Shown piece after piece: positions 27,589 through 40,971 of a stretch of 64,000 bases of DNA. The DNA is from an uncultured Roseobacter sp. (GTDB taxonomy: Bacteria; Pseudomonadota; Alphaproteobacteria; Rhodobacterales; Rhodobacteraceae), in NCBI RefSeq assembly GCF_947492555.1, contig NZ_CANLNE010000001.1:248001-312000 (forward strand), given 5' to 3'. Every line of letters begins with the position of its first letter. Positions within the stretch are counted from its first letter, which is position 1. Below the pieces are notes generated by a model that did no database searches, was not told the DNA's origin, and saw nothing but the letters and a program-made list of their open reading frames with translations. Made by a program: the position numbers and the translations under genes.

Positions 27589-27672
27589 ATTCGCATCCAC
27601 AGCAGGACGCGGTTCCCTTAGGTCACAACCGGAACTTGCGTCATGGTCCTCCCATCGACAAGGAGGACTCAG

Positions 27673-28875
27673 ATGCGCACCGGACAGACCCACCTCTTCA
27701 TTCCCGGCCCGACCAATGTGCCGGAAGTTGTACGCCAGGCCATGAACGTGCCCATGCAGGACATGCGCGCCCCGGATTTCGGGGATGTCACCCTCAGCCT
27801 TTTCCAAGACCTCAAATCAGTCTTCCGCACCAAGACCGGCACCGTCTTGATCTTTCCCGGATCGGGCACCGCAGCCTGGGAAGCGGGCATCACCAATACG
27901 CTGAACCCCGGCGACAAGGTGCTGATGGCCCGGCACGGGCAATTCTCGACCCTCTGGGCGGAAATGGCTGAACGGCTAGGTCTGGATGTGCATCTGGTGG
28001 ACGTCCCATGGGGCGCGGGTGTGCCGGTGCGCGAATTCGAACGGCAACTGGCCGCGGACACGAAGGACGAAATCAAGGCGGTGTTCGTCACCCACAATGA
28101 AACCGCTACCGGGGTGACATCCGATGTTGCCGCCGTGCGCCGCGCGCTGGACGAAAACTTCCACGACGCGCTGCTCTTTGTCGACGGTGTCTCCTCCATC
28201 GGATCGCTGGATTTCCGCATGGACGACTGGCGTGTCGATCTGGCCATCACCGGCAGCCAGAAGGGGCTGATGCTGCCCGCCGGTCTGGGTATTCTCGCGG
28301 TCAGCGAAAAGGCCATGGCGCTGGCCGAAACCTCGACCTCGCGCCGCGCCTATTTCGAATTCAGCGACATGGTGAAGCTGAACGCCGATGGCTATTTTCC
28401 CTACACCCCGCCTACGCAGCTGCTGCACGGGTTGCGCAAATCACTGGACCGCATCTTTGCCGAAGGGCTCGACAACACCATTGCCCGCCACACCCGCCTT
28501 GCCGAAGGGGTGCGCCGGGGGGTGGCTGCCTGGGGTCTCGATCTGGTGGCGGAACACCCGTCGCTCCATTCCAACACCGTCTCGGCCATTCGCACACCGC
28601 AGGACGTGGATGCGCGCGAAGTGATCCGCATCGCCTATGAGGACTACAACACCTCACTGGGCAGCGGTCTGGCGCGGCTGGCAGGCAAGGTCTTTCGCAT
28701 CGGCCACATCGGTGACCTGAATGAGGGCATGTGCCTCACCGCGCTTTCCGTGGCAGAGATGGCGCTGCACCGGGCAGGCGCAGACATCGAATTCGGCTCT
28801 GGCGTTGCTGCCGCACAGCGCTGGTTTGCCGATGAAACCCCCATGCAACAGCCGCTGGCCGTTGCCGCAGAATAA
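27673..28875 (+). CDS. sgaA: Serine-glyoxylate aminotransferase
   Basis: A 400-residue class V aminotransferase that converts serine plus glyoxylate to hydroxypyruvate plus glycine, a serine-cycle step. ATG at 27673 follows a perfect AGGAGG (27661-27666) by 6 bases. The N-terminal LFIPGPTNVPE and the PLP-lysine segment ITGSQKGLMLP are the family signatures, as are HNETATGV and SSIGSLDF. It is the first gene of the sgaA-mcl-mtkA-mtkB operon, divergent from the ScfR-type regulator. Confidence 0.93.
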   Translation: MRTGQTHLFIPGPTNVPEVVRQAMNVPMQDMRAPDFGDVTLSLFQDLKSVFRTKTGTVLIFPGSGTAAWEAGITNTLNPGDKVLMARHGQFSTLWAEMAERLGLDVHLVDVPWGAGVPVREFERQLAADTKDEIKAVFVTHNETATGVTSDVAAVRRALDENFHDALLFVDGVSSIGSLDFRMDDWRVDLAITGSQKGLMLPAGLGILAVSEKAMALAETSTSRRAYFEFSDMVKLNADGYFPYTPPTQLLHGLRKSLDRIFAEGLDNTIARHTRLAEGVRRGVAAWGLDLVAEHPSLHSNTVSAIRTPQDVDAREVIRIAYEDYNTSLGSGLARLAGKVFRIGHIGDLNEGMCLTALSVAEMALHRAGADIEFGSGVAAAQRWFADETPMQQPLAVAAE

Positions 28876-28900
28876 CACAGTCTCAAAGGAAAATACCCTC

Positions 28901-29842
28901 GTGTCACACACCCTCTACCCTCTGAATAAACAACGTCTGCAACGGTCTGAACTGGCCGTGCCCGCATCGAACCCGACAATGATCGACAAGGCCGCCGAGG
29001 GCACCGCCGACTACGTGTTTCTCGATCTGGAGGACGCGGTTGCGCCCCCCGAAAAGGAACAGGCACGCTGCAACGCCATTCAGGCCCTCAATGACATCGA
29101 CTGGGCGGCCCGGGGCAAGACGGTTTCTGTTCGGATCAACGGCCTCGACACCCACTACATGTACCGCGACGTGGTCGATGTGATGGAGCAGGCCGGGGAC
29201 CGGGTGCACACCCTGCTGGTGCCAAAGGTTGGCGTCCCCGCCGACCTCTACATGGTCGATGCGATGGTGAACCAGATCGAACAGGGGCGCGGCCTGCACA
29301 GCCGTGTCGGGCTTGAGGCCCTGATCGAAACGGCACTTGGCATGGCCAACGTCGAGGCAATTGCGCAATTCGGTGGCCGCCTTGAAGCGCTGCATTTCGG
29401 GGTTGCGGATTATGCGGCTTCCATGCGGGCGCGTACGGTGAACATCGGCGGGCTGAACCCGCTCTACCCCGGCGATCAATGGCACGCGTCGATCACCCGG
29501 ATGGTGATTGCCTGCCGCGCCTACGGGTTGCGCGCCATAGACGGGCCCTTTGGCGATTTCTCTGATCCCGAGGGCTACAAGGACGGCGCACGCCGGGCCG
29601 CTGCCTTGGGCTGCGAAGGCAAATGGGCCATCCACCCCAGCCAGGTTGCCCTGGCCAACGAGGTCTTCAGCCCTCCGGAAACCGAGGTTTCCAAGGCCGA
29701 GCGCATTATCGAAGAGTTGAAGAAAGCCGAGGACGAAGGGCGCGGTGCGGCCTCGCTCGACGGCAAGATGATCGATGCCGCCTCGGAGAAAATGGCGCGC
29801 AACGTGATCGATGTGGCGCGCGCCATCGCTGAAAAAGTCTGA
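28901..29842 (+). CDS. mcl1: Malyl-CoA lyase (L-malyl-CoA/beta-methylmalyl-CoA lyase family)
   Basis: A 313-residue CitE-like enzyme that cleaves malyl-CoA to glyoxylate and acetyl-CoA. The GTG at 28901 is used, with AAAGGA about 10 bases upstream and the conserved N-terminus SHTLYPLNKQRLQRSELAVP following. Family motifs are YVFLDLEDAV, the Arg in SVRINGLDTHYMYRD, GLEALIETALG with its catalytic-site Glu, and LHFGVADYAASMRAR. It lies between sgaA and the malate-CoA ligase genes, consistent with serine-cycle carbon flow. A (3S)-malyl-CoA thioesterase is an alternative within the superfamily but less likely here. Confidence 0.92.
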   Translation: MSHTLYPLNKQRLQRSELAVPASNPTMIDKAAEGTADYVFLDLEDAVAPPEKEQARCNAIQALNDIDWAARGKTVSVRINGLDTHYMYRDVVDVMEQAGDRVHTLLVPKVGVPADLYMVDAMVNQIEQGRGLHSRVGLEALIETALGMANVEAIAQFGGRLEALHFGVADYAASMRARTVNIGGLNPLYPGDQWHASITRMVIACRAYGLRAIDGPFGDFSDPEGYKDGARRAAALGCEGKWAIHPSQVALANEVFSPPETEVSKAERIIEELKKAEDEGRGAASLDGKMIDAASEKMARNVIDVARAIAEKV

Positions 29843-29863
29843 ACGCACAAAAGGGGGAATACC

Positions 29864-31039
29864 ATGGACATCCACGAACATCAGGCCAAGGAAATTCTTG
29901 CTGGTTTCGGGGTGCCCGTGCCCCGCGGCGGGGTCGCGTATTCCCCCGAACAGGCAGGCTACCGCGCGCGCGAATTGGGAGGCGAGGCCTGGGTCGTCAA
30001 GGCACAGATCCACTCCGGCGGGCGCGGTGAAGCCGGTGGCGTAAAGCTCTGCAAGACCGAAGACGAGGTGCGCGACTATGCCGCCACGCTCTTTGGCAAG
30101 CAGTTGGTCACCAAGCAGACGGGGGCGGCGGGCAAAGGCGTCTACCGCCTCTGGGTGGAAGAAGCCTCGGACATCCAGCAGGAGCTCTATCTGGGTTTTG
30201 TGCTGGATCGCAAATCCGAACGGATCATGATCGTCGCCTCTTCGCATGGCGGTATGGAAATCGAAGACCTCGCGGAAAAGGACCCGGACTCCCTGCGCCG
30301 CATGATCATTGACCCGGCGGTCGGGCTGGCGGGCTATCAGGCGCGCGAACTGGCCTTTGCGCTGGGGCTCTCGGGCGGACAGATCGCGCAGATGGTCAAT
30401 GTGTTGAACGCATGCTACCGCGCCTATCGGGACCTCGACGCCTTCATGGTCGAGATCAACCCGCTGGTGATCCGCGCCTCCGGCGATCTGGTGGCACTGG
30501 ATGCCAAGATGAGTTTCGACACCAACGCGCTGTACCGGCGGCCGGATGTGGCGGCCCTGCGCGACCCCAGCCAGGAAGACCCGCGCGAGGCGATGGCGGC
30601 CGATCACGGGCTGGCCTATGTGGGTCTGGACGGCGACATCGGCTGCATCATCAATGGTGCCGGTCTGGCGATGGCCACGATGGATATGATCAAGCTGGCG
30701 GGCGGCGAGCCGGCCAATTTCCTCGACATCGGCGGCGGGGCCAGCCCGGAGCGTGTCTGCACCGCCTTTCGCACCGTGTTGTCGGACCCCAATGTGGGCG
30801 TGATCCTCGTCAATATTTTTGCGGGCATCAACCGTTGTGACTGGATCGCGAATGGGGTCATTCAGGCCTACCGCGACATCGGGTTGGACCTGCCGGTCAT
30901 TGTGCGGCTCGCCGGAACCAATGTGCAGGAGGGCAAGGCGCTGCTTGAGACATCCGGCCTGCCGATCATCGCGACCGATACGCTCGCCGAGGCGGCAGAT
31001 GCCGCCGTTTCCCTGCGCAGACAAAACGCCGCTGCCTAA
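29864..31039 (+). CDS. mtkA: Malate-CoA ligase (malate thiokinase) beta subunit
   Basis: A 391-residue ATP-grasp subunit of the succinyl-CoA synthetase beta family, starting [12 protein letters not shown] after GGGGGA. Glycine-rich nucleotide loop [11 protein letters not shown], active-site [10 protein letters not shown] and GGGASPERV regions are present. Succinyl-CoA synthetase itself would have a similar sequence. Assignment as malate thiokinase rests on the neighbouring malyl-CoA lyase and serine-glyoxylate aminotransferase. It makes malyl-CoA from malate, CoA and ATP with the alpha subunit encoded next. Confidence 0.9.
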
Positions 31040-31062
31040 CCCAAAACGGATCGGAGGACCCC

Positions 31063-31959
31063 ATGGCCATTCTCATTGATGAAACCACGCCTGTCCTGGT
31101 GCAGGGCATTTCCGGCCGCATCGGCCAGTTCCACGCGGCGGAAATGATTGAGCACAACACCAATGTGGTTGCGGGTGTCACGCCGGGCAAAGGCGGCAGC
31201 CGCATTCTGGATCGCCCGGTGTTCAACACAGTGCGCGAGGCCGTTGAGGCCACCGGCGCGCAGGCCAGCGTCATGTTTGTCCCGCCCCCCTTTGCCGCCG
31301 ATGCGATGATGGAAGCCGCCGATGCGGGCATCCAGACCGCGGTCTGCGTGGCTGACGGTATCCCGGCGCAGGACATGATGCGGGTGAAACGGTTTCTGCG
31401 CCGGTACCCGCGGCATCGGAAAATACGCCTGATCGGGCCGAATTGCGCTGGTGTCATCTCGCCCGGGCGGGGGTTCATGGGGATCATGCCACCGCATATC
31501 TACACGCCGGGCCGTGTCGGGATTGTCGGGCGTTCCGGCACCCTTGGCTATGAGGCGGCAAGCCAGATGAAGGCTCTGGGCATCGGGGTATCGACCTCCG
31601 TGGGCATCGGGGGCGATCCGATCAACGGGGCCTCTTTCCGGGACATCCTGGAACTCTTCGAAGCCGATCCGGACACCGATGCAGTGATGATGATCGGCGA
31701 GATCGGCGGCCCGCAGGAGGCTGAGGCTGCGGCTTTTGTCCGTGACCACATGAGCAAGCCCGTGGTCGCCTATGTGGCGGGTTTGTCTGCGCCGAAAGGT
31801 CGGCAAATGGGTCACGCAGGCGCGATCATCTCCGCCTTCGGGGAGAGTGCGCAGGAAAAGGTGGAGATGCTCAACGCTGTCGGCATCACCGTCGCCCCGA
31901 ACCCTTCTGTCATGGGATCCACGGTGGCCGAAGTGCTGCAGGGTCGGCACGCCGCGTGA
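31063..31959 (+). CDS. mtkB: Malate-CoA ligase alpha subunit
   Basis: A 298-residue CoA-binding subunit of the succinyl-CoA synthetase alpha family. The N-terminal Rossmann domain reads VLVQGISGRIGQFHA, the CoA-site region VAGVTPGKGG, and the phosphohistidine loop MGHAGAI is intact. It starts 23 bases after mtkA with GGAGG in front. With MtkA it feeds malyl-CoA to the lyase of the same operon. hprA, ppc and glyA, which complete a serine cycle, are not in the window. Confidence 0.9.
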   Translation: MAILIDETTPVLVQGISGRIGQFHAAEMIEHNTNVVAGVTPGKGGSRILDRPVFNTVREAVEATGAQASVMFVPPPFAADAMMEAADAGIQTAVCVADGIPAQDMMRVKRFLRRYPRHRKIRLIGPNCAGVISPGRGFMGIMPPHIYTPGRVGIVGRSGTLGYEAASQMKALGIGVSTSVGIGGDPINGASFRDILELFEADPDTDAVMMIGEIGGPQEAEAAAFVRDHMSKPVVAYVAGLSAPKGRQMGHAGAIISAFGESAQEKVEMLNAVGITVAPNPSVMGSTVAEVLQGRHAA

Positions 31960-33175: not shown

Positions 33176-33838
33176 ATGGCCAAAACGCGTTCCTACAAGC
33201 TGCTCTGCCCGATCGCGCGGGCGCTGGATGTGATCGGCGACCGCTGGACCCTGCTGATCCTGCGCGATCTGCTCGCGGGGCCCGCGCGCTTCACCGATCT
33301 GCAAACCGGGCTCTCCGGTATTGCGGCCAACCTGCTGACCGACCGGCTGGCGAAACTGATGTCGGACGGGCTGATCACCAAATCGGACGGCCAGCACGGT
33401 GCCGCCCTCTATGCGCTCACCGACAGCGGCAAACGCACCCGCAACATCCTTTTCGAGCTGGCGCTATTTGGCGGCGGCATGCCCCCCCCCGAAGCGCAGG
33501 TGAAACCCGGCAATCTGAGAACCGTTGCCACTACGCTCGGGGCAGCCGCCGCGCGCGTTACCCTGTTGACCGACGATTTCGTCGCCGAGTTGCGGGTGGA
33601 TGGCGAGCAGATCACGATGCGGGTTGAGGATGGCGCCCCGACGGTCCTCTATGCGGCAGCACGTGACCCTGATGTGGTTTTTGAGACCAGCTATGAGGCC
33701 TTGCTGCAAGTTTCGGAAGGCGAAATTTCATTGCAGGACTTTACCGCCAATCACAGCAGATTACAGACCTACACGCTTGAAAAAGATCAGAGTTTCATGG
33801 CGGTCATGCAGCAGATCATGAGCCAGTTTACCGCCTAG
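33176..33838 (+). CDS. HxlR-family transcriptional regulator
   Basis: A 220-residue regulator. The winged-helix HxlR domain occupies residues about 5-100 (CPIARALDVIGDRWTLLILRDL, quoted in part as DVIGDRWTLLILRDL, then NLLTDRLAKL). An extra C-terminal domain of about 110 residues resembles a sterol-carrier/SCP2-like ligand pocket by pattern only. It is divergent from the NmrA-like reductase. Its stop overlaps the stop of the FAD oxidoreductase gene by 4 bases (convergent). HxlR proteins often sense aldehydes or redox-active small molecules. Confidence 0.87.
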   Translation: MAKTRSYKLLCPIARALDVIGDRWTLLILRDLLAGPARFTDLQTGLSGIAANLLTDRLAKLMSDGLITKSDGQHGAALYALTDSGKRTRNILFELALFGGGMPPPEAQVKPGNLRTVATTLGAAAARVTLLTDDFVAELRVDGEQITMRVEDGAPTVLYAAARDPDVVFETSYEALLQVSEGEISLQDFTANHSRLQTYTLEKDQSFMAVMQQIMSQFTA

Positions 33839-35166
33839 AGCTCGCGCCCTGCCCGAACCTCCCCCCAGCGCAAACGCACCGCGGCGCCCAGTTTTGTGAT
33901 GGCCCTGGGGGGCAGCCGTTTGGGCGTCTCAGCTGCCCGCGCCCGGTCCAGCGCATCGGTCTCAATGCCGTTTGCCGCTTCCGCCGCAAGCAGACCTGCC
34001 AGCGTGCCCTTTGCCGTTCCCAGCCCGTTCTGACAGCAGGCCGACCACAGCCCCGGCTCAAGCTCGCCGATGACCTGCACGTTGTTCAGGCTGAGGCAAA
34101 GCCGCCCGCCCCACCGGTACGCCATCCGGACATCGCCCAGCATCGGAAACCGGGCCGCAAAGGCACGATCATGATCCTGCCCCACATACGCGATACGCCG
34201 GTCATCCACTTCCATTTCCGGATCGAAGGTGAACCGGTTTCGGATTAATATCCGGTCTCCTCCTGTCCCGGAAATCCTGCGGACCGTCGTACCCAGGGGA
34301 TCAGCGGGTGTGAGACCCCAAACCGGTGCACCACCCAGTGCAGCGGCTTGTGCCGCGGTCATCGGCTCGGTCATTGAGGCATATGTAAAGACATGCATCA
34401 GTCGACTGGCCATATGTCCAAAGCTTTCCAGGTGACCGTTGACCGCCAGAATGACCCGTGGCGCCGTCACCCGGCCTTTGGGTGTCTCCGCCACCCAATT
34501 CCCCTGTCGCCTCAGGGAAATCACCGGGCTTTCCTCGTGGATGGACAAGCGATTTGACAGCAAGGACTCGGCAACGCTGCGAACGAACAGCGCAGGCTGA
34601 ATCATCGCGGCACCAGGGGTTACAAGACCGCTTTGGTAATAATCTGTTCCGGTCAAATCCCGCATCTGGCCGGCATCCAGCATCTCATGCGCCTCACCCA
34701 TGGCTGTCAGGTGGCGCGCATAATCGAGGTTGTGCTGATGTCCCTTGGGGGTGGCCGCCCCGTTGATCTTGCCAGATGGGCTGAACGCCTCTTCGCTCAG
34801 CCCGAAATCCGCGGCCATCTCGGCGGCAAAGGCAATGCCGCGCCGGTTATCTGCCGTCTGGGCGCGATCCGCCACCAACGCGCCGCCGTAGTTGTCAGAC
34901 GCCAGGTCGTGGGGCAGATCGATCATGAACCCGGAGTTGCGCCCGGCAGGCCCCGCGCCCACGCGGCTTGCTTCCAGCACGACGATCCGGTCGCCCGAAC
35001 AAAGCTGTGACAAACGCCGTGCTGCGGCAAGCCCCGCAAACCCGGCCCCGATGATCAGCCAGTCAGCGCTGACATGCCCTTCCAGAGGCGTTGGTGCATT
35101 GGGCCGTGGCAGCAGACAATTCCAACCTGCCGGACCCGGATCACGCGGCAATCGGGACACTTTCAT
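33835..35166 (-). CDS. FAD-dependent amine oxidase/dehydrogenase of the DAO family (PuuB-like)
   Basis: A 443-residue flavoprotein starting MKVSRLPRD at 35166, 7 bases after the MttB-family gene stop. The FAD motif is LIIGAGFAGLAAARRL (around residue 37). The C-terminal segment YRWGGRLCLSLNN...QNGLGTAKGTLAGLLAAE is that of the DAO/PuuB group. These oxidise secondary or primary amines to imines or aldehydes. It is the last gene of the GntR-DapA-ALDH-MttB operon. A natural flow is methyltransferase or oxidase releasing an amine or aldehyde, then the dehydrogenase. The true substrate is unknown. Confidence 0.87.
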   Translation of the reverse strand: MKVSRLPRDPGPAGWNCLLPRPNAPTPLEGHVSADWLIIGAGFAGLAAARRLSQLCSGDRIVVLEASRVGAGPAGRNSGFMIDLPHDLASDNYGGALVADRAQTADNRRGIAFAAEMAADFGLSEEAFSPSGKINGAATPKGHQHNLDYARHLTAMGEAHEMLDAGQMRDLTGTDYYQSGLVTPGAAMIQPALFVRSVAESLLSNRLSIHEESPVISLRRQGNWVAETPKGRVTAPRVILAVNGHLESFGHMASRLMHVFTYASMTEPMTAAQAAALGGAPVWGLTPADPLGTTVRRISGTGGDRILIRNRFTFDPEMEVDDRRIAYVGQDHDRAFAARFPMLGDVRMAYRWGGRLCLSLNNVQVIGELEPGLWSACCQNGLGTAKGTLAGLLAAEAANGIETDALDRARAAETPKRLPPRAITKLGAAVRLRWGEVRAGREL

Positions 35167-35173
35167 TGCACCC

Positions 35174-36724
35174 TCAATGCGTCTGGTTGAGGGCGTCCGC
35201 CGCCGGGATTTCACGCTCGCGGCGGGCGATATAATCACGCAGGGCCTCATCCTTGGCGGCATCGAGCGTCGGCTCTTCGTAAGTGTTGAGCAGATCACGC
35301 GCCCGGATCAGCGCCCGTTCCGTGATTTCGACAGCGCCCTCGGCCTGCCATTGCTCGATGGAGTTATTGTCGAACATCTCCGGCATAAAAAATGCCCTTT
35401 GGAAGTTCTCCAGCGTGTGCGGGTGGCCCAGGTAATGCCCGCCGGGCCCGATATCACCCACGGCCTTGATGGCCTCGTCGAAATCGTCCCAATTGACCCC
35501 TTCCGCCATGCGGTAACCCATCGCGCACATCTCGGCATCCACCACGAACTTGGCCATGGAGCAGTGCATCCCCGCCTCATTCCAGCCCGCCGAATGCCAG
35601 ATGTAGTTGGCCCCTGCCATCAGCACCGCGTTCAGCGTCATCGCACTTTCATACCCGGCCTGCGCGTCGAAGGTCTTGGCCCCACCCAGCGTGTTCGATG
35701 TGCGCCAGGGCACGCCATAGTGCCGTGCCATCTGCCCGATCATGAAGTTCATCAGGCTGATCTCCGGCGTCCCCGCCATCGGCGCGCCGGATTTCATGCT
35801 GACCGTGCTGAGGTAGTGCCCGTAGATCGCGGGACACCCTTTGCGGATCACCTGCGTGTAGGCCAGCGCGCTCAGCGCCTCGGCATTCAGCTGCGCCACC
35901 GTAGGCGCGACAGACGCGGGCGTATTGGCTCCGCCCAGCACGAAGGGCGAGCAAAGCACCGGCTGATTGCGGCGGCAAAACGCGCGCATCGCGCCCAGCA
36001 TCGTCTCGTCCCAGACCAGCGGCGAGTTGCCGTTGCAATTGCCTGTCACCACCGGGTGGCTGTCGATGAACGCCTCGCCAAAGAGGATCGCGCACATCTC
36101 GATCACATCCTCGGCGTTCTTCGGGCTGGTGGTCATGCCCATGAAGGTCTTGTCCGAATGCTTCATTGAGGAATAGGTGATCCGCAGGTGCCGCTGGCTG
36201 ATCGGATGATCGTAAGGCTCCACGATATGATGCGCCGAGGAATGGATGCTGGGTAACATGTGGCTCAGCTTGTGGAAATTCGCCAGATCCTCCAGCGTCG
36301 GGTTGCGCCGCACATCGTCGAGATCGCGCAGATAAGGCGCGCCGGTCATCGGCACAAAGATCGCATGATCCTTCCCAAACGGAAGGTTATTCGCCGGGTT
36401 GCGCGCGTGATAGGTGAAACTCTCGGGGATGGTCGAGATCAATTCACGGACCAGCCCGCGGTCCAGATGCACCCGCTCGCCCCGCACCTCCGCGCCCGCG
36501 CGTTTCCAATCGGCGAGCGCAATCTCATCCCGGAATACAACGCCGACGGTCTCCAGAATGTCCATCGATGCTGCATCGACACGCGCGACCTGCCCCTCAT
36601 CCATCACCTCCGTCAGCGGCAGCCGCCGCTTCAGCGCAGGCAACATGGTCACATCGCGCGTCTGCCGCAGCGCCTTGCGCGCGCCCCGGCCGCGCCGGGC
36701 AGTTCCCACAGCCTCGACACTCAT
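35174..36724 (-). CDS. MttB-family (COG5598) methyltransferase without pyrrolysine
   Basis: A 516-residue member of the trimethylamine methyltransferase superfamily with a full-length frame and no in-frame amber codon. It thus belongs to the non-pyrrolysine branch, whose studied members demethylate quaternary amines such as glycine betaine, proline betaine or carnitine onto a corrinoid protein. Recognisable family stretches include AGANYIWHSAGW and DDFDEAIKAVGDIGPGGHYLGH. The basic N-terminal about 25 residues look like an extension. It overlaps the aldehyde dehydrogenase by 4 bases. No corrinoid protein or tetrahydrofolate methyltransferase is encoded next to it, which is odd for this mechanism. 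Confidence 0.88.
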   Translation of the reverse strand: MSVEAVGTARRGRGARKALRQTRDVTMLPALKRRLPLTEVMDEGQVARVDAASMDILETVGVVFRDEIALADWKRAGAEVRGERVHLDRGLVRELISTIPESFTYHARNPANNLPFGKDHAIFVPMTGAPYLRDLDDVRRNPTLEDLANFHKLSHMLPSIHSSAHHIVEPYDHPISQRHLRITYSSMKHSDKTFMGMTTSPKNAEDVIEMCAILFGEAFIDSHPVVTGNCNGNSPLVWDETMLGAMRAFCRRNQPVLCSPFVLGGANTPASVAPTVAQLNAEALSALAYTQVIRKGCPAIYGHYLSTVSMKSGAPMAGTPEISLMNFMIGQMARHYGVPWRTSNTLGGAKTFDAQAGYESAMTLNAVLMAGANYIWHSAGWNEAGMHCSMAKFVVDAEMCAMGYRMAEGVNWDDFDEAIKAVGDIGPGGHYLGHPHTLENFQRAFFMPEMFDNNSIEQWQAEGAVEITERALIRARDLLNTYEEPTLDAAKDEALRDYIARREREIPAADALNQTH

Positions 36725-38211
36725 CCGATGTTATCTCCGTCTGCGGGGTCGCTCAGATCGACCCAGATGGTCTTCAGCTCGGTGTATTGGTCATGCGCGT
36801 GCATCCCATTGTCGCGCCCGCCAAAGCCCGACTGCTTGTACCCGCCAAAGGGCGTCGCGATATCGCCCTCGCCATAGCAATTCACGGTGACCGTACCCGC
36901 CCGGATGTCTCGTGCCGCGCGGATCGCCGTGCGCGTATTGGCGGTAAAGACGCTGGCCGCAAGCCCGTAGGCCGTGTCATTGGCCAACGCGATTGCCTCA
37001 TCGGTCGAGGCCACCTCGATCACACTGAGAATGGGCCCGAAAATCTCCTCCCGCGCCTTTACATCATCCTTGGCCACCTCATAGATCGCAGGTGGCACAA
37101 ACGGCCCGTCCGAGGTGCCACCTGCCAGCGCGGGACCGGTCAGGTAGCCGTTGACCTTGGCCAGATGATCGGCGTCGATCAGCGCGCCAAGATGGTTTGC
37201 AGGGTCCAGCGGATCACCCGTCTTCCAGTCCCGCAACCGCGCCATGATACGCTCCAGCAGCGGTGCTTTGACATCTTTGTGCACAATCAACCGCGACGCA
37301 GCGGAGCAATTCTCGCCCATGTTCCAGAAGGCCGCGTTGACCACATGTTCCGCCACATGATCGAGGTTCTCGGCATCGGCCAGCACCACCGCCGGGTTCT
37401 TGCCGCCGCACTCCAGCACGACCTTCTTCAGGTTGCTGTCCGCAGCATAGCGCAGGAAGTGGCGCCCCGTCTCCGTCGAGCCGGTGAAGCTCACCATGTC
37501 CACATCCATATGCCGTCCCAGCGGTTCCCCAACCGATGGCCCATCGCCCGGCAGCACCTGCAACACGCCGCGCGGCACCCCCGCCATATGCGCCAGCTCC
37601 GCCACCCGCAGCGCGGTCATCGAGGTCTGCTCCGCCGGTTTCACGATGACCGAACAGCCCGCCGCGAGCGCCGGGCCGATCTTCCAGGCCAGCATCAACA
37701 GCGGGAAATTCCACGGCAGAATTGCCGCCACAACGCCCACCGGCTCCCGCACGATGACCGACAGCGCATCATCTCCCGCGGGGGAGGTCTGGTCATAGAT
37801 CTTATCGGCGGCCTCTGCGTGCCATTTGATGCAGTGAATTGCCTCGGGAATGTCCACCCGTTCGCAATCGCGGATCGGCTTGCCGGACTCCAGGCTCTCC
37901 AGCACCGCCAGCTCCCGCCTGCGCCGCGTGATGTATTTGCACAGTTTGATCAGCACGTCCTTGCGACCCGACGGGTGCATGCGCGCCCAATGCCCCTGGT
38001 CAAAGGCTTCGCGCGCCTTGCTGACAGCGAGATCAACATCCGCCGGACCCGCGGTCGAGATCTGCGTGATCTCCTCCCCCGTTGCGGGGTTCAGTGTGGG
38101 CATCATCGCCCCCGCCCCTTTGCGAAACTTGCCGTCGATGAACGGCGCTGCGGGGAAATCCAGATCAGCGGCAATGGCGGCATACTCCGCCCGGGTCAGA
38201 AGATCGGTCAT
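36721..38211 (-). CDS. NAD(P)+-dependent aldehyde dehydrogenase (PuuC/BetB-like)
   Basis: A 496-residue aldehyde dehydrogenase. The catalytic Glu is in LECGGKNP, the catalytic Cys in NMGENCSAASR, and the cofactor motif is FTGSTETGRH. The end, PFGGYKQSGFGGRDNG, resembles the gamma-glutamyl-gamma-aminobutyraldehyde or betaine aldehyde dehydrogenase groups. ATG at 38211 shares its A with the TGA of the upstream DapA-like gene (TGATG), which indicates coupling. It would oxidise the aldehyde produced by the FAD oxidase or the lyase in the operon. Confidence 0.9.
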   Translation of the reverse strand: MTDLLTRAEYAAIAADLDFPAAPFIDGKFRKGAGAMMPTLNPATGEEITQISTAGPADVDLAVSKAREAFDQGHWARMHPSGRKDVLIKLCKYITRRRRELAVLESLESGKPIRDCERVDIPEAIHCIKWHAEAADKIYDQTSPAGDDALSVIVREPVGVVAAILPWNFPLLMLAWKIGPALAAGCSVIVKPAEQTSMTALRVAELAHMAGVPRGVLQVLPGDGPSVGEPLGRHMDVDMVSFTGSTETGRHFLRYAADSNLKKVVLECGGKNPAVVLADAENLDHVAEHVVNAAFWNMGENCSAASRLIVHKDVKAPLLERIMARLRDWKTGDPLDPANHLGALIDADHLAKVNGYLTGPALAGGTSDGPFVPPAIYEVAKDDVKAREEIFGPILSVIEVASTDEAIALANDTAYGLAASVFTANTRTAIRAARDIRAGTVTVNCYGEGDIATPFGGYKQSGFGGRDNGMHAHDQYTELKTIWVDLSDPADGDNIG

Positions 38212-39116
38212 CACAGGGCTCCCGGAATGGCGGCAATGGTGGCGGTCATCGTACGGATCACCTCGTCCAAAGCGCGCTTGTCGTCTTTGTTGAGCGGTTG
38301 CAACGGCTTGCGCGGCGGCCCCGCGTCGATGCCCCGCAGCGTCACCCCGTGCTTGATGCACTGAATGAACTTGCCGCCCTGCTCCAGCACCCGCATCAGC
38401 GGCAGCATTGCCGACATGATCGCACGGCCACGCGCGAAATCCCCATCGACCGCACAGGCGCGGTACAGCGCCAAATGCGCTTCGGGCGCGAAATTCGACC
38501 CTGCGCAGACCCAGCTGCGCGCGCCCCAGGCAAAGAACTCCAGCGCCTGATCATCCATCCCGCAGCTCAGCGCGATATGCGGATAGTCGCGCGCCAGCAT
38601 GTGCAACCGGTTGATATCGCCCGAACTTTCCTTGATGGCACAGAAGTTCGGGCTGCGGCCCAGACGGTCGAGACACTCTTCGTCCATATCGACGCTCATC
38701 CGGCCCGGGTAGTTATAGAGCATCGCGGGCAGGTTCGCGGCTCGGTCCACGGCCAGCGCGTGCAAGGCAATTTCGCGACCTGTTGGATAGGCGTAAGGCG
38801 GCGTGGCGATCAGGATCGCATCCGCCCCCACCTCCCTGGCGGCCTCCGCATAGGCAACGCTGTCCTCCGTGCGGATCGCGCCTGTGCCGACGATCATCGG
38901 CACGCGCCCGGCAATCAACGCCTTGCAGCGGCGCATCATGTCCACCCGCTCCTCCATCGATTGGGCGTAATATTCCCCCGTGGTCCCCGCCACGATGAGC
39001 CCATGCACGCCCGCAGCAATCAGGTGCTCCACCGTCTCGCCCAATGCGGCCTCGTTCAGCGAGAAATCCGCGTGATAGGGCGTGATCAGCGGTGTGTAGA
39101 TTCCTTCAAACTGCAT
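38211..39116 (-). CDS. DapA-family class I lyase/aldolase (DHDPS/NAL superfamily)
   Basis: A 301-residue TIM-barrel enzyme forming a Schiff base. The carboxylate-binding GTTGEYY, the catalytic Tyr in LYNYPGR and the Schiff-base Lys in AIKESSGD are all present. It is unlikely to be the lysine-biosynthetic DapA, because it sits in a catabolic operon with a GntR regulator. Pyruvate-releasing aldolase, or deaminase of the type used in hydroxyproline breakdown, is a better guess. It overlaps the GntR gene by 11 bases and the ALDH gene by 1. Confidence 0.88.
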   Translation of the reverse strand: MQFEGIYTPLITPYHADFSLNEAALGETVEHLIAAGVHGLIVAGTTGEYYAQSMEERVDMMRRCKALIAGRVPMIVGTGAIRTEDSVAYAEAAREVGADAILIATPPYAYPTGREIALHALAVDRAANLPAMLYNYPGRMSVDMDEECLDRLGRSPNFCAIKESSGDINRLHMLARDYPHIALSCGMDDQALEFFAWGARSWVCAGSNFAPEAHLALYRACAVDGDFARGRAIMSAMLPLMRVLEQGGKFIQCIKHGVTLRGIDAGPPRKPLQPLNKDDKRALDEVIRTMTATIAAIPGAL

Positions 39117-39828
39117 TGCGCCGGTCCTTCAGTGACACAACATCCACCGGCAGCGGATCAGGCCGCACATAGCGTTCCATCCGGTCCCGCGACAAATCCC
39201 AGTGCTGCAGCGACAGATCGATCGCCAACGCGCTTTCATGCGCCTCGATTGCCGTGATCAGCGCGTCATGCTGATCGCTTGCCTTCACGATCAACATCTT
39301 TTCATCCGCATTGGCGGGCCGGTAAAACCGCTGGCTCAACCGCGTATGGTCGATCAGCAACCGATCCAGCGACGCGACCAGGTAAGGGTTGTGCGCCATC
39401 TCGCCGATCACGGCATGAAACCGATGATTGGCCAGTGCCGTTGCCTGTGCATCCTGCGCTGCGGTCGCCTTGGTGAAAGCATGCTGCGCGTCCTTGAGCG
39501 CCTCCAGCTGAGGACCTGTTCGCGCCTCTGCCGCAAGGCTGGCAATATTGGCGTAAATCATCGGGGCGGTCTGAAAGAACGTCCGCATCGTGCCGATGTC
39601 CATCGATGCCACCTTGGCACCGCGGTTCTCCGACGTCGTGATAAAGCCCGCCCCGGCCAGCCGGTGCAACACTTCACGCATGGGCGTACGCGACATCCCG
39701 TAGTGTTCTGCAAGCGTCGTCTCATCCAGATCGCTGCCGGGCGCAAGCGCCGTAGACAGGATGCGCAGCTTCAGATCACTCAGGCACTGGTCCTTGGACA
39801 AACGAGGCATCGGCAACTCCAGGCTCAC
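39106..39828 (-). CDS. GntR-family (FadR/FCD type) transcriptional regulator
   Basis: A 240-residue regulator with an N-terminal winged helix (DLKLRILSTALAPGSDLDE, TTLAEHYGMSRTPMREVLHRL) and a C-terminal FCD all-helical ligand domain with metal-type histidines (FHAVIGEMAHNPY, HDALITAIEAHES). ATG at 39828 is used; an ATG 6 codons inside is also possible. It is the first gene of the operon it presumably controls, with a TGTATAC dyad directly in front. It is divergent from the cysteine desulfhydrase-family gene. Confidence 0.9.
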   Translation of the reverse strand: MSLELPMPRLSKDQCLSDLKLRILSTALAPGSDLDETTLAEHYGMSRTPMREVLHRLAGAGFITTSENRGAKVASMDIGTMRTFFQTAPMIYANIASLAAEARTGPQLEALKDAQHAFTKATAAQDAQATALANHRFHAVIGEMAHNPYLVASLDRLLIDHTRLSQRFYRPANADEKMLIVKASDQHDALITAIEAHESALAIDLSLQHWDLSRDRMERYVRPDPLPVDVVSLKDRRNAV

Positions 39829-39830
39829 TT

Positions 39831-39849
39831 TGTATACTGATTGTATACA
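39831..39849. promoter_or_regulatory. TGTATAC-N5-GTATACA dyad, probable GntR operator
   Basis: Exact 7-bp inverted repeats with a 5-base spacer sit 3 bases before the GntR start and about 118 bases before the divergent desulfhydrase-like gene. The GTATAC core is typical of FCD-type GntR sites. Repression of its own operon by covering the start region is likely. Confidence 0.75.
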
Positions 39850-39966
39850 TTTCCAACCCCGTCAAGACAATTTTCGACCAACCCCTCTCAAGTGTCTGAC
39901 TTGGCCGATATTCGCTTTCATGGCACGATGCGGAGCACATTCACTTACAGAACCAAGGGACAACCC

Positions 39967-40971
39967 ATGGATTTTCCCCGCGCCTCACTTGTCAGCGCCG
40001 TGACCCCGATAGAACACCTGCCGCGGTTGTCGGATGAACTTGGCATCTCGCTGCATATCAAACGTGATGATCTGGCCGGAACCACGATGGGCGGCAACAA
40101 ATCGCGGCAGCTGGAGTATTATCTTGGCGCGGCGCAACAGGCGCAGGCACAAACCATCCTGATCACCGGTGCGGTACAATCCAACTTCGTGCGGACCGCG
40201 GCGGCGTCGGCGGCGAAACTGGGCATGAAAACCATCGTCCAATTGGAAGACCGCGTGCCCCTGACCGATGCGCTCTACGGCACGAATGGAAATGTGTTGC
40301 TGTCCCGTCTTCTGGGGGCGGAAGTCATGCGGTACCCGGTGGGCGAGGATGAAGCAGGCGCAGATGCCGCGCTGCGCGCACGCGCGGCGGAAGAGGAAGA
40401 GGCCGGCCGCACCCCTTATGTCATCCCGCTGGCGCTGGGAAACGCGCCGCTCGGGGCCCTGGGATATATGCGCGCGGCCGAGGAAATCCTGTCGCAGGAT
40501 GACGGGTTCGATGTGGTGATCGTGGCCTCAGGCAGCGGTCTGACGCACGCCGGTCTGCTGCACGGCCTGCGGCAGGCGGGTCACCGCGCCAGGGTCATCG
40601 GCAGCTGCGTGCGCCGGGACGCGAAACAACAGCAGGACCGGATGCGCCGGGTGCTCGACGCCCTCGCAAAGATGACCGGGACTACCGCCGCCCAAGACAC
40701 GGACATCGTCATCTGGGACGGCGCCCTGTCGCCCGGCTATGGGCAACTCGGCCCGGCGGCGGCACAGGCCACGGCGATGATGGCGCAGACCGAAGGCATC
40801 ATGCTCGACCCGGTCTACACGGCCAAGGTTTTTGCCGCCATCCCCGCGCTGGTAGCGCGCGGCGACATCAATCCCGGGGAACGTGTGCTCTTTGTGCACA
40901 CCGGCGGGCTGGCGTCCCTATTCGCTTATCAATCCGCCTTGGAAAACGCCTTCCCCCACCCCGAGGCCTAG
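39967..40971 (+). CDS. PLP-dependent D-cysteine desulfhydrase/L-cysteate sulfo-lyase/ACC deaminase family enzyme
   Basis: A 334-residue fold-type II PLP enzyme. The PLP lysine lies in MGGNKSRQLEYYL and the family stretch TGAVQSNFVRTAAASAAKLG follows. The phosphate loop region is IVASGSGLTHAG and the end VLFVHTGGLASLFAY. The group includes D-cysteine desulfhydrase, ACC deaminase and CuyA, the L-cysteate sulfo-lyase of roseobacters; sequence alone does not separate them here. ATG at 39967 gives the family N-terminus MDFPRASL. It is divergent from the GntR operon, whose regulator may control it too. It overlaps the next convergent stop by 4 bases. Confidence 0.85.
   Translation: MDFPRASLVSAVTPIEHLPRLSDELGISLHIKRDDLAGTTMGGNKSRQLEYYLGAAQQAQAQTILITGAVQSNFVRTAAASAAKLGMKTIVQLEDRVPLTDALYGTNGNVLLSRLLGAEVMRYPVGEDEAGADAALRARAAEEEEAGRTPYVIPLALGNAPLGALGYMRAAEEILSQDDGFDVVIVASGSGLTHAGLLHGLRQAGHRARVIGSCVRRDAKQQQDRMRRVLDALAKMTGTTAAQDTDIVIWDGALSPGYGQLGPAAAQATAMMAQTEGIMLDPVYTAKVFAAIPALVARGDINPGERVLFVHTGGLASLFAYQSALENAFPHPEA

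Follow-up and report, generated by a model that had tools for sequence, protein, structure and literature searches.

A stretch of 64,000 nucleotides from an uncultured Roseobacter sp. (the window) carries a five-gene operon on its minus strand, coding in order for a GntR regulator, a DapA-family lyase, an aldehyde dehydrogenase (ALDH), an MttB-superfamily methyltransferase and a FAD amine oxidase of the DAO family (Table 1). It is probably an inducible, aerobic and cobalamin-dependent operon for the catabolism of hydroxyproline betaine or of another N-methylated 4-hydroxyproline. The enzyme families are known ones, and it is their widely conserved combination that we infer to serve in using an imino-acid betaine by an aerobic, B12-dependent route. 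An earlier reading made from the letters of the window (the sequence-only reading) had proposed the degradation of such a betaine, hydroxyproline betaine being one example, and this substrate appears as the best fit to the conserved unit, to the HpbD, OYE and transporter genes neighboring it in related loci, and to the genes of one locus, L082, described below. The tight coupling claimed for the five genes was likewise upheld by the table of open reading frames (ORFs) and the family assignments, the junctions from GntR to the FAD oxidase being overlaps of 11, 1 and 4 bases followed by a 7-base gap. The ALDH start was placed at 38211 by comparison with relatives, the longer ORF reaching 38361 beginning too early. 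Members of the oxidase, DHDPS and ALDH superfamilies, the catabolic trio of hydroxyproline, are thus all present, an assignment that holds at the superfamily level only.

The five genes are a true conserved unit. In a sample of the family with one genome for each of 198 genera, a DapA ortholog (E <= 1e-70) was found in 50 of the 53 genera possessing an MttB of the window's clade vs. 4 of the 145 lacking it (Fisher p 2.7e-38, a value that ignores kinship, although the genomes were taken one per genus). All five genes stood together in 62 of 80 named loci, and in 48 of the 52 spanning at least 17 kb, with a GntR ortholog in 68 of the 80; the 80 were the top-ranking loci out of at least 587 candidates, so that close relatives are favored, and some genomes supply two. 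The sequence-only reading would have been contradicted by genes keeping unrelated partners in most genomes, and the counts show the opposite. In 56 family loci, which include the window and the outgroups L088-L090 (44-48% identity), gene clusters were recovered for MttB in 53, ALDH in 43, DAO in 42, DapA in 42 and GntR in 40, all lower bounds because ORF calling missed genes, e.g., MttB in L074, L079 and L088. The locus sets L036-L090 and L113-L192 share assemblies and are not independent. Two layouts recur among the family loci: in one all genes run in the same direction, in the other GntR-DapA-ALDH-DAO and MttB converge. Among the named carriers are Roseovarius, Planktomarina, Octadecabacter, Cognatishimia, Thalassobacter and Loktanella. 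Sampling 385 genomes across the class gave 19 further places with DapA, two from the window's family (L198, L201) and 17 from other families; ALDH followed DapA at 18 of them, and a clade MttB lay nearby at seven. On pSymA of S. meliloti AK57 (L093, 5970-10481) ALDH, DAO and MttB fall in an unannotated stretch with fragmented matches, so that these copies look broken; GntR, DapA and a betaine transporter of the same region carry annotation.

The dyad operator attributed to the GntR gene was confirmed as a tandem of GTATAC copies ahead of it (39832-39837 and 39843-39848). Of the 67 named loci where GntR was found with enough flank, 59 had GTATAC inside -120..+30 relative to its start, vs. 93 of 7,830 control tiles of 150 bp from these loci, with the operator tiles counted in. 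Across the broader family loci, the hexamer lay near the GntR start in 21 of 39 cases, and near 10 of 521 other genes. HTH and FCD domains together with a conserved palindrome near the start identify the product as a GntR/FCD regulator with a putative operator.

The MttB protein matches PF06253 over its full length (residues 10-507; 716 bits, cut-off 25). No in-frame stop is present in its gene and none was reported among 53 close matches, the gene itself included; a pyrrolysine MttB was ruled out by this open frame, the TAG of a 48% identical relative (G033) being merely the terminal stop. The protein belongs to a discrete clade found in 53 of the 198 genera, its own included, whose other members are 77-90% identical to it while the next best match drops to 48%. 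The source genome holds five MTTB genes, and the window MttB is 25-42% identical to the other four (at best 42% over 478 residues). A structure-chain search returned 4yyc, 2qne, which we take to be MtgB of Desulfitobacterium hafniense, and 9yce, titled glycine betaine methyltransferase. Thirty-nine positions are invariant in the clade (at least 98% of 129 non-independent sequences) and differ in all 8 outgroup MttBs, the last two of them with few or no outgroup letters; they include A164-H165-H166, H303, W376, N382 and H387. The role that we propose for the window MttB is methyl transfer to a corrinoid, with a quaternary amine as donor.

No corrinoid protein is encoded next to the operon, and the sequence-only reading had left two explanations, a corrinoid supplied in trans or a new MttB chemistry. 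The genome content supports the former, with a putative MtgC-like protein as the supplier. The source genome (completeness 99.99%) has a single B12-binding_2 protein, which is stand-alone, measures about 232-235 aa (L223:9553-10248) and scores best against MtgC models (MtgC_2, 191 bits, below the cut-off of 370), and two pterin-binding proteins, one of which is presumably the folate enzyme FolP. A gene of the betaine-homocysteine-methyltransferase (BHMT) type lies 5 kb from the corrinoid gene. MetH was not found in this genome, since it would give another B12-binding_2 match and none is present. A 212-aa gene (L223:8846-9481) adjoins the B12-binding_2 gene.

This arrangement resembles MtgBCD of Ruegeria pomeroyi, where a non-pyrrolysine pfam06253 methyltransferase works with corrinoid and pterin-binding proteins; mutants showed MtgC and MtgD to be required for glycine betaine use and methionine synthesis, the two proteins being encoded apart from the MtgB genes and also serving a split methionine synthase (PMC12478193). 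The source genome likewise lacks MetH. With corrinoid and pterin-binding proteins encoded elsewhere, as in Ruegeria, the operon's missing corrinoid gene therefore needs no new chemistry. A clade MttB working with no corrinoid protein, or by a new reaction, is very improbable: homologs of the corrinoid protein are indeed absent from the window and from 165 related loci (E 1e-5), and the 39 clade-invariant positions would suit such a change, but corrinoid and pterin-binding proteins exist elsewhere in the genome, and the window MttB keeps a full-length PF06253 domain and its 42% identity to another MttB of the same genome. The window MttB differs from MtgB of Ruegeria or D. hafniense in forming a separate clade, as judged by the 25-42% identity to its four paralogs, linked to an oxidase, DapA and ALDH set, and DMGDH-like genes adjoin the window-type MttB in some loci only. 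MtpB, the proline-betaine methyltransferase of the anaerobe Eubacterium limosum, is also an MttB-family enzyme for an imino-acid betaine and is likened here by its description (PMC12478193).

The genes found beside the cassette hint at N-methylated hydroxyproline as the substrate. A mandelate-racemase-superfamily gene of the HpbD type shared the locus of MttB in 6 of the 56 family and 7 of the 80 named loci, and was present in 11 of the 53 MttB genera vs. 1 of the 145 others. It matches the solved chains 4e8g (565 bits) and 2pmq/4h2h (498 bits), presumably (hydroxy)proline-betaine epimerases, while its best NCBIfam model, cis-3-hydroxy-L-proline dehydratase, stays below cut-off. An OYE-type flavoenzyme occurred in 7 of the family loci, a P5C-reductase-like gene in 9 and SDR genes in 21 (at least two in 16). 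In Cereibacter sphaeroides 2.4.1, plasmid pB carries MttB-HpbD-SDR-SDR facing DAO-ALDH-DapA-GntR, followed by ProVWX. Betaine/proline ABC genes surround the cassette in 8 of 11 annotated plasmid regions, and a BCCT transporter in one more; five of these regions were picked by MttB matches and six by DapA matches, a twelfth, pSymB, being unannotated. In L082, an MttB-HpbD-SDR cluster adjoins a DHDPS with the HypD-type GSMGD motif, an oxidase of the D-amino-acid-dehydrogenase type and a proline-racemase-family epimerase with both catalytic cysteines (Cys/Cys), and three of the 19 class-wide places (L208-L210) combine cassette-type DapA (50-51%) and ALDH (60-61%) with oxidases and a Cys/Cys epimerase of these same types. 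A cassette without MttB likewise has links to N-methyl chemistry: in Rhizobium WSM4643, an OYE (67% identical to a roseobacter OYE over 349 residues), ETF and genes of glutathione-dependent formaldehyde oxidation accompany GntR-DapA-ALDH-DAO and a betaine transporter. The SDRs of the MttB loci are of two types (e.g., L063:7489-8963), each in 33 of the 80 named loci; their role in hydroxyproline-betaine breakdown is not obvious.

These neighbors recall the hpb pathway of Zhao 2013 and Kumar 2014 (cited in PMC4113996). The shared elements are the oxidase, DHDPS and ALDH superfamilies, betaine transporters in many of the regions and, for a minority of the clusters, an HpbD-type epimerase. The source genome, in contrast, has no HpbD. 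In the hpb pathway the first methyl group is reportedly removed by a Rieske oxygenase, which a corrinoid methyltransferase would replace here. No link between MttB and hydroxyproline betaine was found among the open-licence papers listed, judged mainly by titles and the beginnings of abstracts. A homarine operon was considered and dropped, a single literature search having given nothing that links homarine to the operon. Hydroxyproline betaine has been detected in two radiolarian holobionts and not in their free-living algae (PMC11965087).

In the proposed pathway, GntR would sit on the tandem GTATAC operator until the substrate or an intermediate releases it. The MttB enzyme would then move one N-methyl group of the quaternary betaine onto the MtgC-like corrinoid protein encoded elsewhere, from which a pterin-binding partner would pass it to tetrahydrofolate (THF). 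A further demethylation, of the remaining tertiary amine N-methyl-hydroxyproline, would fall to the FAD oxidase or to an OYE-type enzyme whose gene lies elsewhere in the genome. The FAD oxidase would go on to oxidize the ring at C2-N. The resulting 4-hydroxy imine or keto acid would be opened and processed by DapA, and the aldehyde formed in this step oxidized by ALDH. A fold search placed the oxidase with glycine oxidase, sarcosine oxidase and L-proline dehydrogenase; it had no match among solved structures by sequence (limit 1e-8) or by profile (limit 1e-12). DapA retains the Lys of IKES, the Tyr of YN and the DHDPS-like Arg of YNYPGR, residues whose roles we presume; its substrate is likely the product of ring oxidation, on which it would act as a dehydratase-deaminase or as an aldolase.

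The free-hydroxyproline (hyp) pathway offers the closest comparison for these enzymes, since members of the DAAO, DHDPS and ALDH superfamilies serve there as c4Hyp oxidase, Pyr4H2C deaminase and alpha-KGSA dehydrogenase (PMC4113996), so that the window operon is alike in three downstream superfamilies and in its GntR regulator. In the hyp region of S. meliloti the order is GntR, DHDPS, ALDH, epimerase; the window oxidase has no match there, and the epimerase is missing from the source genome. Several results weigh against the proposed substrate. The window DapA and ALDH are 27 and 25% identical to the S. meliloti hyp-cluster enzymes, and DapA carries GTTGE and YNYPGR where HypD has GSMGD and YNSPYY, a departure from the S. 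meliloti-type Pyr4H2C deaminase. The S. meliloti hypD-type gene is one that we take as such from gene content, the pSymB record being unannotated. By score, ALDH is nearest to aminoaldehyde enzymes and not to alpha-KGSA dehydrogenase: PuuC 487 bits (cut-off 850), aminobutyraldehyde 413, BADH 411 and alpha-KGSA GucD 311 (cut-off 770), none of the 25 NCBIfam models listed attaining its cut-off. Its closest solved chain is 7uyy (670 bits), behind which we assume the gene PA4189 to stand; no paper on PA4189 was found.

The epimerases and the wider loci add to these difficulties. HpbD is missing in 42 of the 53 MttB genera; in the source genome no HpbD ortholog (best match 28%) and no proline-racemase-family protein (PF05544) were found, and the usual D-hydroxyproline route would consequently be without its epimerase here. 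Hydroxyproline-epimerase-type genes are not associated with MttB (2/53 vs. 17/145) or DapA (3/54 vs. 16/144). In L082, the usual DapA cassette lies elsewhere in the genome and is not adjacent. No transporter gene directly adjoins the window operon according to the ORF table and the Pfam families, and a GTATAC regulon beyond GntR was given up, the palindrome preceding none of 56 MttB, 6 HpbD and 7 OYE genes. The MttB locus (L159) of Roseovarius nubinhibens ISM, a strain for which growth on hydroxyproline has been reported (PMC4113996, Table 3), is devoid of DapA, ALDH and DAO. Finally, the annotated 4-hydroxyproline epimerase of three rhizobial and Paracoccus cassettes carries a Gly where the second catalytic Cys should stand (RSPGGTG vs. 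RSPCGTG), a loss that makes these proteins poor evidence for free hydroxyproline and their plain two-base epimerization look doubtful. One of them, when tested, scores above the NCBIfam cut-off all the same. A free-hydroxyproline operon proper was dropped because of this substitution and of the absence of known epimerases from the source genome.

Within the preferred reading, it is conceivable but unlikely that this ring-betaine route, aerobic and cobalamin-dependent, cuts N-methyl-hydroxyproline directly to pyruvate and sarcosine, in place of full demethylation and the alpha-ketoglutarate route. MttB would yield N-methyl-hydroxyproline, the FAD oxidase would act at C2-N, DapA would split 4-hydroxy-5-(methylamino)-2-oxovalerate as an aldolase into pyruvate and methylaminoacetaldehyde, and ALDH would form sarcosine, which would enter the sarcosine/THF pathway. 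The four enzymes would be exactly sufficient, a second demethylase, an epimerase and a deaminase being unnecessary, which suits a genome lacking the known epimerases. The DHDPS-type residues of DapA, unlike those of HypD, the aminoaldehyde and BADH-like scores of ALDH and the sarcosine/glycine oxidase fold of the oxidase agree with it as well, and so do DMGDH/sarcosine-dehydrogenase-like genes in L042, L046, L057, L063 and L199 (from a search seeded with three of them) and purU-folD-soxG in L213. Nevertheless, we know of no precedent for such a route, the DapA residues by themselves cannot tell an aldolase from a dehydratase-deaminase, and the OYE-type demethylases of the family loci suggest that full demethylation precedes ring oxidation.

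The pathway could also run as in animals, through C5 oxidation of L-hydroxyproline, with ALDH acting on 4-hydroxyglutamate semialdehyde and, after transamination, DapA serving as 4-hydroxy-2-oxoglutarate aldolase; pyruvate and glyoxylate would result, the latter used by the glyoxylate genes nearby. L-pipecolate oxidase AmaA as the best NCBIfam model of the oxidase (112 bits, cut-off 600), a GO annotation (IEA) as glyoxylate catabolic process for 7 of the 11 plasmid-region DapA orthologs, MtkAB and malyl-CoA-lyase-like genes beside the window's cassette and the dispensability of an epimerase all lean this way. We hold it to be quite unlikely, however: no aminotransferase cluster was among the recurrent neighbors of the family loci, DapA-ALDH pairs also accompany D-amino-acid dehydrogenases and Cys/Cys epimerases, which implies C2 oxidation, and the glyoxylate genes adjoin the cassette only in its two nearest named relatives (2/80) and in the family locus L046. 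A different quaternary amine, such as proline betaine, pipecolate betaine or a hydroxylated linear betaine like carnitine, with DapA and ALDH handling another hydroxy-keto acid, has a low probability. HpbD-type enzymes act on proline betaine too. Moreover, proline betaine, glycine betaine, butyrobetaine and carnitine each have an MttB-family enzyme (PMC12478193), yet proline betaine would require proline catabolism only and not DapA, and a hydroxylated proline is indicated both by the DAAO/DHDPS/ALDH trio and, in L082, by the hydroxyproline-type genes next to MttB.

Upstream of GntR, the window carries a PLP enzyme whose best model is CuyA (296 bits, cut-off 450) and whose start is likelier at 39967 than at the TTG at 39841. 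Its divergent position, as given in the sequence-only reading, stands; its inclusion in the unit was abandoned, as it is conserved in 2 of the 80 named loci. The gene shares the operator region with GntR in the window's lineage only. The glyoxylate aminotransferase, malyl-CoA-lyase-like and malate-CoA ligase genes on the other side of the cassette are possibly used for its C1 or glyoxylate products.

Table 1. Position of the operon, of its putative operator and of other features mentioned in the text (window coordinates unless a locus is named).
Feature	Position	Strand	Family	Remark
FAD amine oxidase, DAO family	33835..35166	-	PF01266	start MKVSRLP at 35166, stop at 33835
MttB-superfamily non-pyrrolysine corrinoid methyltransferase	35174..36724	-	PF06253	proposed quaternary-amine demethylase
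Aldehyde dehydrogenase (ALDH)	36721..38211	-	PF00171	PuuC / aminoaldehyde / betaine-aldehyde type by score
DapA/DHDPS-family lyase	38211..39116	-	PF00701	
GntR/FCD-family regulator	39106..39810	-	PF00392 + PF07729	first operon gene
Putative operator, two GTATAC palindromes 11 bp apart	39830..39849	none		between GntR and divergent PLP gene
Divergent PLP enzyme	39967..40971	+	D-cysteine desulfhydrase / CuyA family	lineage-specific neighbor
Aminotransferase, CitE/malyl-CoA lyase-like, MtkA, MtkB	27643..31959	+		glyoxylate/serine-cycle genes, neighbor of cassette
4-hydroxyproline epimerase (as annotated) with Cys to Gly	L092:15609-16604; L213:2754-3743; L214:15605-16600			beside cassette

Marine roseobacters often hold multiple pfam06253 genes, up to seven per genome, for which diverse methylated compounds have been suggested as substrates, further ones being expected for the additional paralogs (PMC12478193). 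The present analysis offers a concrete substrate hypothesis for one unassigned MttB paralog, whose orthologs occur in Planktomarina, Roseovarius, Octadecabacter and many other marine genomes, and the cassette supplies marker genes and a reaction order that can be tested. If the proposed function is true, the operon would add a B12-dependent sink for an osmolyte-like betaine.

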